Shown here one piece after another: positions 40,571-55,197 of a stretch of 64,000 bases of DNA. The notes under the pieces are model-generated. The model made no database searches and had not been told where the DNA came from. It saw only the letters and a program-made list of their open reading frames with translations. The translations under genes were made by a program, and so were the position numbers. Origin of the DNA: Thiospirochaeta perfilievii (lineage in GTDB: Bacteria > Spirochaetota > Spirochaetia > DSM-2461); assembly GCF_008329945.1 (NCBI RefSeq), contig NZ_CP035807.1, positions 2,666,001 through 2,730,000 on the forward strand. Direction: 5' to 3'. Position 1 is the first letter of the stretch. Each line of letters starts with the position of its first letter.

Positions 40571-43500
40571 CTATACTTTAGCAGCCATAGACTCTTTTGC
40601 ACCTTTAATAAGGAACTCTAATCTATTTGCTGTATTAACCTCACTTGTACCTGCATCCATATCAAGGAATAGTAGGTTAAGATGAGGATGAACCTCTTTT
40701 AATTTTTTCTCGACACCCTTTGCTACTATGTGGTTCGCGATACAACCAAATGGTTGTAAACAGACAACATCATTAATCCCATCTTTAACATAGGTTCCAA
40801 TTTCTCCAGCAACTAACCACGCCTCACCATATTGGTGATTGATACTTAAAACCTTCTCTGCAGTTTCACCTATATCTTGAATGTGGTGAATAGGACTCAT
40901 CCCTAGGTGATAGTTAGATAGTATAGCATTTGCTCTACCTATAAAACTATAACATACATTCTCGGCAGCTTTTAATGCTTTTAAGTAGACCTTGCTTTTA
41001 GGTAAGATATTAAAGTCACTATTAAATGGCTTAGCAACAAAGGATTTTAAGAAGAAGGTAATTAGAGGTGTAACTTCGACCTCAATTCCCTTACTCATTA
41101 ACCAATTATTGATATATCCATTGGAGAAGTCGTTAAATTTAACATATATCTCTCCAACTATACCAACTTTAGGTAGTTCTGTTGGATCAACTTCTATCTG
41201 GTTAAACTCATTTACACACTGCTCTAGAAGGTTAAAAAGTTTACCATGTTTCCCAATTTTTAAAAGAGGGTAGGAGAGTTCTATATACTTATCCACTAGT
41301 TTCTGAGCATCACCCTTATTTTTCTCCCTAACAGCAGTTCTATAGAAAAGTTTTGATAGACAGTCTCCAAAAAGGGAACCAAAGAATGATGTATATGTAA
41401 ACTTTACAGGACTAACTTGGAAACCTGGTTGTAAATTTAGGGGTTTACTAGTTGATGTTGAAACTGTAATAACAGGAACATCGTGGAAACCTGCATTAAC
41501 AAGACCTCTTTTAAGTAGAGATGCATAACTTGATGCCCTACATTGTCCTCCTGTCTGAGTTAGTCCTACAGCTACTTCGTCAGGGTTATACTTTCCAGAC
41601 TCAAGGGCTTTAATAAGATCTCCAATTACAATTGTTGCAGGGTAACAGATATCATTATTTGTATATTTTAAACCAATTTCAATACTAGACTTATCTGGTT
41701 CTGGTAGAACTTCAAACTTATATCCATCTAATTCAAAGGCTGCTGTTAAATATCTTGTATAAAAATTAGAGAACTGTGGGGCTAATATAGTTCTTCTTTT
41801 AACATCTAACTTATCAAATAAAGGAAGTACAACTCTTGGTTTATGCTCCCGAATGTAGTTTTCTCCCCGCATTTTCATAGACTCAATTAATGATCTAATT
41901 CTTAATTTCACAGAACCAGGAGAGCTTATTTCATCTATTCTAAGTACTGTAGGATTCTTTCCAAATACATTTAATATAGGTTTAACTTCGTCTACAACTA
42001 TTGCATCAGGCCCACAACCAAAGGAGTTTAATTGAACAACCTCAATATTATCCCTCTCTCCTGCCCAGATTGCTGAGTCATAAATTCTATTTGGAAGTGT
42101 CCATTGGGATAGAACATGTACATCTTGGTGCATATCGCTTCTATCCTCTTCTGGTATACAATCCTCTGTAATTACGTCAACACCAATTGCTGTTATCATC
42201 TCTGGTGCTTTGTGATTTACTAGGGAATCCACATGATATGGTCTCCCTAATAACATAATTACCAGTCTTCCATCCCTCTCTGCAGCGTCAACTATTCTCT
42301 GCCCTTCTTTAATAACATCTTCTTTGTATGTTTGGTACGCCTCTTCTGCTTTTTTTAACGCCTTTTTAAATACATCCTTTTTAACACCAAATTGACTTAA
42401 ATATTCCCATGTAGATTTTTCAATAACCTCAGGAGAGTTAAATGAGAAGGGTATATTATCAAATGGAATTCCAAACTTCTCTTCTGGTTTTACAGACGAT
42501 TGAATTACCTCAGGGTAACCTGTAACAACAGGGCAGTTATAATTATTTTGAGATGTTTCATTTTCTGTTCTGTTATATCTAACCATAGGATAGAAGATTC
42601 TATCAACTTTCTCCTCAATTAACTCATAAATGTGTCCATTTACTATTTTAGCTGGGAAACAGATATTTTCAGACATAACTGTACCATAACCCTTCTCTGC
42701 TAAAGGCATTGTAGACGGAGGGGATAGGGTAACCTTTATTCCTGATTCAACAAATAGAGTACTCCAGAATGGAAAATCCTCCCACATGTTTAGAACCCTA
42801 GGAATACCTATATTAAGTAGTGGCTCTCCCTCTGGCTCTAGTTTTCTATCAAAGAGTAGCCTCTTTTTAATTTCATGAAGGTTTTCCCCTTTATAGCTAC
42901 CCTTTAACTGGTTTGAAAAAATCTTCTCACATTTATTACCTGTAAAAAAAGATTTTTTCCCCTGGTAGGTTAATGTGGTAACTGTACATAAATTCTCACA
43001 ACCTCTACATACAGATGACTTTCTATTATAGTCTAGTGCTTTTTCTAGATTATCAAATCCAATAAATGTTGTTGTTGATTTCTCTTCGTAGAATTTTTTC
43101 TTTGCAACTAAGGCAGATCCATAGGCTCCCATTAACTCAGAGATATCAGGTCTTACAACCTCTTTACCTACTTGTTTCTCTAGGGATCTTAAAACTGCAG
43201 GATTTTTAAAAGTTCCACCCTGAACTACTATGTTATCCCCTAATAGAGAGTAATCAGTAAGTTTTAGAACCTTATTAAAGGCATTTTTTACAACAGATAT
43301 AGCTAAACCTGCAGCAATATCTCCCTTGGTTGCACCCTCCCTAAGGGACTGCTTTACCTTAGAGTTCATAAATACTGTACACCGGGTTCCAAGATCGCAT
43401 GGCGCCTTACTATAACAAGCCTGTTCTGCAAACCCAGCTACGTTTTCGTTAAGATTTTGTGCAAAAGTTTCAATAAAAGAACCACAACCTGAAGAACAAG

Positions 43501-49864: not shown

Positions 49865-51201
49865 ATGGCTCCTGAAATATGGAGCTTTATTATAAGGGGG
49901 GTCAGAATTAATCTTATTGGAAAAATTGTAAGTACTCTAGGTAGTACATTATGGGGAGTTTTTTTACCTATAATAATATTTTTAGGTATTTATGTAATTT
50001 TTAAGATGGTTAAAAATCTTGAAGATATATCTAAAAAAGATAATGGTAAGCTAACATTTAAAAAGGCAAAAAGTGCACTTTCTATATCAGTATCATCTAA
50101 AATTGGTACAGGAGCAATAATTGGTGTATTAGCAGCACTTTGGAAAACCTCGGATAATGGAGTAGGAGGGGAGGCCATTGTTCTTTGGGTCCTAATTGGT
50201 ATGATAATCTTAGTCCCATTAACATATGCTGAGGTTTTATTTTCCCAGGTAACAAAAAAGCTTCCTAGATTATTTGTTGAATTTAATTTAGGTAGTAAAA
50301 GTAGTCTTATTTATATTATTTCTTTAGTAATTTTATACTCGTTTGGTTTTGTTGGGTTTCAATTTACTGGGATTCAAACTGTAGGAATAATTCTTTCAGA
50401 TAAACTATTAGGTTATACTCTTAGCTCTACTCAGATGTTATTTTTTATTGTAGTACCAATGATAGTAGTAACAGCAATAATAATACTAACAAAAAGTCAC
50501 CTTCTATTTATTAATGTTTTAGGATCTCTCATTTCAATTGTAATTATATTTTATCTAATTATGTTTATTATTTTTTTATATAAAACCAGGTCGTTTATTC
50601 CTGAATATATCTCAGATATGTTTAATGATTTCTTAGATTTTAGAACCATGGGGATAGGACTTCCTATAGGTTTAGTTTTAGGATTTCAGAGAATAATACA
50701 GATAAGTGAAACGGCGTTAGGGACAAGTGCTCTAGCATCATCTGATAGGGAGAATAGCCCTCGTAAAGAGGCTTTTTTACAAGTTGTGGCAACACTTATT
50801 ACACTTTTTGTAGCAGTAGGAATCACATCATATGTTTTTGCTTATGGAAGAGCAAACATTGCTGGAGTAGAGTTAAGTGGTAATGGGTTTAATAGAATTG
50901 TAGGTTATATAAAAAGTGTTGAAACAATAACTGGAAGTTATGGATTGTTTGTTATACTAATATTCTTTCTTTTTTCAGGGTATTGTACAGTTTTAGGTTC
51001 TTTCCACTTTCTTAATACTTCTATGAAGATATCAGATAATAAAAAATAATTTTCTATCTATTTTTGATAACTATATCTGGTATTCTTAGTGTCTCAAATT
51101 TTAGTTTTATTTTTGATGTAGTGGATTTATTAATGTTTGTAGTAGGTTTAATTATTATGATCTCACTATTTAATTTTACTAGACGGGGATATATACGATA
51201 A
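49865..51201 (+). pseudogene. AGCS-family (sodium:alanine) symporter, frame broken at an A6 run near the 3' end
   Basis: It is typed as pseudogene because the given frame stops early at 51049 (394 codons). The body is a divergent member of the alanine/glycine:cation symporter family: SSKIGTGAIIGVLAALWK near 78-95, VPLTYAEVLFSQ near 118, and ISETALGTSALASSDREN near 282. The stop directly follows AAA AAA at 51041-51046. With one more A, or a -1 slip, the frame continues through 51 further codons to TAA at 51199-51201. It adds FYLFLITISGIL and a last TM helix with FDVVDLLMFVVGLIIMISLF, as expected for the family C-terminus. No Shine-Dalgarno sequence is visible at the start, 12 nt after the YedE gene. 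The amino acid is unknown. Confidence 0.8.
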
Positions 51202-51239
51202 TTATTAAAAAAAAATTAAAAAAACAAATCTTGATAAAT

Positions 51240-51268
51240 TTGATATTCATTTTTTATTGAATTATAAT
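51240..51268 (+). promoter_or_regulatory. Near-consensus sigma-70 promoter of an orphan short transcript
   Basis: TTGATA (5/6), a 17-nt spacer, TATAAT (6/6). It is the best promoter match I see in the window, and the only thing between it and a strong terminator is about 60 nt of non-coding sequence. Confidence 0.65.
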
Positions 51269-51274
51269 TAAAGT

Positions 51275-51336
51275 ATATTTTTCTCCAGAGGAAGATTAGT
51301 CATTGAGCAATAGCACTAGTCTTCCCCTTTTTTTTT
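51275..51336 (+). ncRNA. Candidate small RNA of about 60 nt
   Basis: Expected transcript from the promoter at 51240-51268 to the T tract at 51328-51336. It consists of about 14 nt of 5' leader, then an 11-bp hairpin with a nested ATTG-AG-CAAT stem in its loop, then nine T. No convincing ORF is present. It is convergent with the GH20 gene and overlaps its stop codon by 2 nt. The alternative is a terminator of the AGCS transcript plus a chance promoter. Confidence 0.45.
51288..51336 (+). terminator. Strong intrinsic terminator
   Basis: GGAAGATTAGT (51290-51300) pairs with ACTAGTCTTCC (51315-51325) with one G-T wobble, then CC and nine T. It ends any transcript from the AGCS gene or the orphan promoter. 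Confidence 0.85.
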
Positions 51337-55081: not shown

Positions 55082-55087
55082 TAAAAT

Positions 55088-55093
55088 ATTATA
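55088..55093 (-). promoter_or_regulatory. TATAAT 6 nt before the FAD-oxidoreductase ATG (leaderless candidate)
   Basis: A perfect -10 on the minus strand with 6 nt to the ATG at 55081. No Shine-Dalgarno sequence and no good -35. Confidence 0.45.
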
Positions 55094-55101
55094 TATTTTT
55101 C

Positions 55102-55130
55102 TTGACGTAAACGCTATCCTTTATTATTAA
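55102..55130 (+). promoter_or_regulatory. topA: Candidate topA promoter
   Basis: TTGACG (5/6), a 17-nt spacer, TATTAA (4/6). This leaves about 60 nt of 5' leader before topA. Confidence 0.35.
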
Positions 55131-55197
55131 TTCATATACTAAGCTCGTCGATCCATTCTATTTTCTGAAGTGAGATCTATTAAATAAGGAGATTTTT

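Follow-up and report, generated by a model that had tools for sequence, protein, structure and literature searches.

Between a symporter gene and an opposite-strand GH20 gene of Thiospirochaeta perfilievii lies a short stretch in which a promoter-like site leads straight into a hairpin and a run of T, which raises the question of whether this element is a gene for a small RNA or only the end of a neighbouring transcription unit. It lies in a 64,000-nt stretch of the genome (the window). To answer the question, the three genomes of the genus, T. perfilievii, G001 and G002, were compared. The TTGATA-N17-TATAAT promoter, and likewise the 11-bp stem and the nine T, were found where the first-pass annotation had placed them (Table 1). 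The spacing from the -10 box puts the probable transcription start at about 51275-51276.

Table 1 Features of the candidate small RNA gene in the window
Feature	Position	Strand	Remark
AAATTTG, invariant block over the -35 box	51236-51242	+	7/7 identical in 3/3 genus genomes
-35 box TTGATA	51240-51245	+	sequence read; 17-nt spacer to -10
Rest of -35 hexamer and 17-nt spacer	51243-51262	+	diverged in sequence, length constant
-10 box TATAAT	51263-51268	+	identical in 3/3 genomes
Discriminator TAAAGTA, to the inferred start	51269-51275	+	identical in 3/3 genomes
Unpaired 5' leader UAUUUUUCUCC, proposed seed, anti-Shine-Dalgarno core	51276-51286	+	identical in 3/3 genomes
5' arm of 11-bp stem	51290-51300	+	pairs with 51315-51325
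Loop	51301-51314	+	TGAGCAATAGC at 51304-51314 invariant in 3/3
3' arm of stem	51315-51325	+	pairs with 51290-51300
Nine-T tract, putative intrinsic terminator tail	51328-51336	+	last two T in GH20 stop codon

The first-pass annotation had called this the best promoter of the window, a rank that it shares with 56370. Matches at 11 of 12 promoter positions numbered two in the window against a mean of 3.85 in 20 shuffles, which is not above chance, so the promoter score was dropped as evidence. The counts of the motif elsewhere in the three genomes (26, 19 and 17 matches; 14, 13 and 17 in the controls) indicated no clear regulon sharing it. From the comparison of the sequences, it is conservation that lifts the element above chance, and the promoter score does not.

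A 136-base query was run against the genome itself and 40 relatives, and besides its own genome only G001 and G002 gave strong matches; the next best row had an E of 1.9e-4 over 27 bases, and the numerous remaining rows, reported up to E 10, were weak. With a 74-base query all three genus genomes were matched, one match apiece. A covariance model of the three genus sequences found, at E<=0.01, 3 of 394 Spirochaetia genomes, which were the three of the genus. A family search at E<=1 in 26 genomes added four weak places (one each in G002, G004, G005 and G007). From this set of L013, L014, L015 and L016, we read L013 and L016, which resembled common hairpins located after other genes and were discarded as distant homologues. 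Scanning of phage contigs for the pattern gave no match.

Within the genus, TATAAT through TAAAGTATATTTTTCTCCAG (TATAAT and the next 20 nt) was identical at 26 of 26 bases in the three genomes, and the distance from AAATTTG to TATAAT was the same in all of them. The 20 nt between these two blocks showed pairwise identities of 6, 10 and 8 of 20, and the 33 bases upstream 15, 7 and 6 of 33. Four-fold degenerate sites of the neighbouring MFS and AlkD-like genes, which were taken as the yardstick of divergence, were 0.27-0.47 identical. When 9.1 kb of G001, 35 kb of G002 and the whole window were compared, just three stretches reached 20 nt or more of identity across all of them: 27 nt in the element, 31 nt before topA, and 20 nt inside an ORF (41655-41674). 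The first-pass annotation had staked its reading on the promoter boxes being conserved together with the hairpin, and they were, even better than the T-run. This pattern indicates that purifying selection maintains the promoter, leader, stem and loop together, as a unit independent of its neighbours. As a separate observation, 55087-55138, between the start of a minus-strand FAD-protein gene and topA, is identical over 52 nt in G002 and over 31 of these in G001. It carries TTGACG and TATAAT-like boxes, placed on opposite strands, and appears to be a divergent promoter or an operator under strong conservation.

The genes around the element differ among the three genomes (gene names come from reading the translations, with no family search behind them). 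The window has the order MFS, CoA-disulfide reductase, YeeE-like, symporter, element, GH20 (opposite strand), AlkD-like; G002 has CoA-disulfide reductase, element, a binding-protein-like (SBP) gene on the opposite strand, AlkD-like; and G001 has MFS, element, AlkD-like. Thus the immediate upstream neighbour is a symporter in the window, an MFS gene in G001 and a CoA-disulfide reductase in G002. In both G001 and G002 the upstream stop codon directly precedes AAATTTG, therefore natural rearrangements delimit the unit at the -35 box. The symporter ORF of the window ends at 51049 beside an A-run, and another frame runs on from there, hydrophobic and ending in NFTRRGYIR at about 51202. The T. perfilievii P genome was sequenced by PacBio only (PMC7380536), and the symporter end at 51030-51202 appears to be a frameshift, either real or from that sequencing.

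Since the flanking genes differ, neither a terminator of the symporter nor an antisense RNA to GH20 explains the element. That it is only the terminator of a symporter operon, joined to a promoter-like site that arose by chance in an AT-rich sequence, gains something from its position just behind the symporter, its good U-tract and a promoter match within chance; yet unrelated genes lie upstream in the three genomes while the -35 block, -10 box and leader are identical, and conservation is lowest in the T-run, which leaves this explanation quite improbable. The antisense role to the last bases of GH20, proposed in the first-pass annotation, fared worse. The element shares just 2 nt with GH20 (TT at 51335-51336, within the GH20 stop codon), and although in G002 it reaches with its 3' arm and U-tract into the final codons of another gene, the convergent gene is not conserved: it is a different one in G002, and no GH20 is found at the locus in G001. 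The comparison contradicts an antisense RNA to the 3' end of the convergent gene, and we regard it as extremely improbable.

The stem itself was kept: 33 of 33 cells pair across the three sequences, three of the 11 pairs change on one side (G-U/A-U swaps), and two-sided compensatory changes were 0 of 11 with three genomes. The predicted fold of the T. perfilievii sequence reached -15.0 kcal/mol, with a z of -3.5 and a single one of 200 shuffles folding equally well, and that of G001, with z -1.0, was no better than shuffles. The nested stem that the first-pass annotation had seen in the loop stood only in part, having 2 bp in the minimum-free-energy fold of the window and being absent from the centroid, which makes it weak there; it has 4 bp in G002, where the loop is longer by 6-7 bases, and 3 bp in G001. 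Among terminator features, the hairpin is present in all three genomes and the U-tract in two. G002 keeps the T-run and G001 lacks it, and the terminator tail of G001 appears to be lost or weak because CTCTTTGTCCC follows the stem. In G002 (L003, 1564-1585) the convergent gene has its stop codon within the 3' arm, so that its end and the terminator overlap. The terminator scan of the window did not include the hairpin at 51290-51325 among its terminators, probably because the loop has 14 nt and the scan allows 3-8.

The absence of an ORF, also claimed at first, held up, as no ATG, GTG or TTG ORF of at least five codons was common to all three genomes. On the minus strand the three share a frame, LEKNIL, that begins with CTG and lacks a usual start; the corresponding peptide MTNLPLEKNIL (window; GTG start in G001) was dropped, because G002 has no usual start codon for it. 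Rfam gave no family at the gathering score, and its hits up to E 10 were all weak, far under the family thresholds, with RsaE not among them.

Two further explanations accept the conservation and place the function differently. In the one, the element is a cis-acting leader, that is, an ancestral promoter and 5' leader of the AlkD-like gene which inserted opposite-strand genes later split off in the window and in G002. The AlkD-like gene is indeed the first or second gene downstream in each of the three genomes, and in G001 the gap to it is about 20 nt, without a U-tract; but two of the three genomes have an opposite-strand gene in between and a strong U-tract, and the element is equally conserved there, so that we hold this origin to be improbable. 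A related reading is that in the G001 lineage the small RNA, having lost the U-tract, now serves the AlkD-like gene as promoter and leader, while it would act elsewhere as a minimal, Hfq-less regulator of translation with two parts, the 11-nt anti-Shine-Dalgarno tail and the terminator that follows it; this we consider rather unlikely. In the other explanation, the product would be a protein-binding, decoy or sponge RNA whose working part is the invariant loop UGAGCAAUAGC and not the leader. The loop is invariant in 3/3 genomes, and its complement outside the element occurs once in the T. perfilievii genome (on a plasmid), once in G002 and never in G001. The G002 place presumably is an FMN riboswitch, from its looks, and neither place was convincing as a target. 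A working loop would leave the equally invariant unpaired leader unexplained, and its probability is likewise low.

The small-RNA reading thus came through the comparison, as promoter boxes, leader and hairpin are kept together beside differing neighbours. The element has what would be its own promoter, with -35 and -10 at fixed spacing in three genomes with different neighbours, and what would be an unpaired seed, since the 11-nt leader is identical in all three and each of its positions has a predicted unpaired probability of at least 0.9. We therefore take it, with high confidence, as a selected and self-contained RNA gene, and probably as a genus-specific trans-acting sRNA of about 60 nt in Thiospirochaeta. 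In this model, a sigma-70-type promoter would drive a predicted stand-alone RNA of about 60 nt from near 51275, an intrinsic terminator would end it, and the leader UAUUUUUCUCC with its anti-Shine-Dalgarno core may pair with ribosome-binding sites of mRNAs. We propose this pairing tentatively.

Around the predicted start, TATAATTAAAGTATA at 51262-51278 forms an imperfect dyad, for which a count by eye gave 6 of 7 pairs, and which is perhaps an operator; sites like it showed no clear excess over control in the three genomes. The promoter boxes (51236-51268) also contain AAATTT, which fits RAATTY, and TTATAA. Both RAATTY and TTATAA are m6A-methylated motifs in T. perfilievii P (PMC7380536), and both are frequent in AT-rich DNA.

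Pairing with other mRNAs through the pyrimidine-rich leader or the loop had been suggested in the first-pass annotation. Both parts proved invariant, but target searches in the three genomes found no convincing partner. The UCUCC of the leader complements GGAGA. Complements of the leader 15-mer with up to two mismatches gave 53, 61 and 65 hits in the three genomes against 81, 48 and 32 for the reversed control, and of the places listed, which for G001 were part of the matches, the 30 with loci were examined. For GGAGAAAAA before ATG the hits were 32, 26 and 31 (reversed control 34, 27 and 24), so leader complements showed no consistent excess over the reversed control in the three genomes. The ORF check took in 32/32, 26/26 and 30/31 of the GGAGAAAAA places. 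An ORF of at least 40 aa began at the ATG behind 52 of them (L067 and L070 are one gene), and two ORF pairs, read from their translations as pyrophosphatase-like and as a secreted protein, recurred in T. perfilievii and G001. Among these 52 RBS-type ORFs, none recurred in all three genomes.

According to PMC4409812, sRNAs of the RsaE family have C-rich regions that are able to pair with Shine-Dalgarno sequences, and because of this a similar mode of action is our best guess for the leader. Like RsaE/RoxS of Staphylococcus and Bacillus, the element has its own predicted promoter and an unpaired, C-containing pyrimidine stretch able to pair with a G-rich Shine-Dalgarno sequence. Unlike them, it has one short UCUCC instead of several C-rich regions, and there is no sequence match, from which we judge that it is not a member of the RsaE family. 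Among spirochaetes, sRNAs were mapped by RNA-seq in Leptospira interrogans, with few Rfam relatives according to the passages concerned (PMC5243855), and in Borrelia burgdorferi, as described in parts of PMC10319736. The present element resembles these in being a small RNA of a spirochaete, but they were seen as transcripts, whereas it is predicted from conservation and confined to the genus among 394 genomes of the class. A literature search naming Thiospirochaeta turned up no sRNA work on the genus. Probably, then, the element is a new, genus-restricted member of a kind already known, the trans-acting sRNAs.

The candidate is well delimited, as gene loss and insertion on both sides set its borders and the invariant sites name the key bases. 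Hfq (PF17209) had no match in T. perfilievii versus 5 of 14 control genomes in which it was present, although a very diverged Hfq could escape this search. The element would open a way into the study of RNA regulation in free-living sulfur spirochaetes that lack a recognisable Hfq. And if the reading of G001 as a converted copy were true, it would be a small RNA caught while turning into an mRNA leader.
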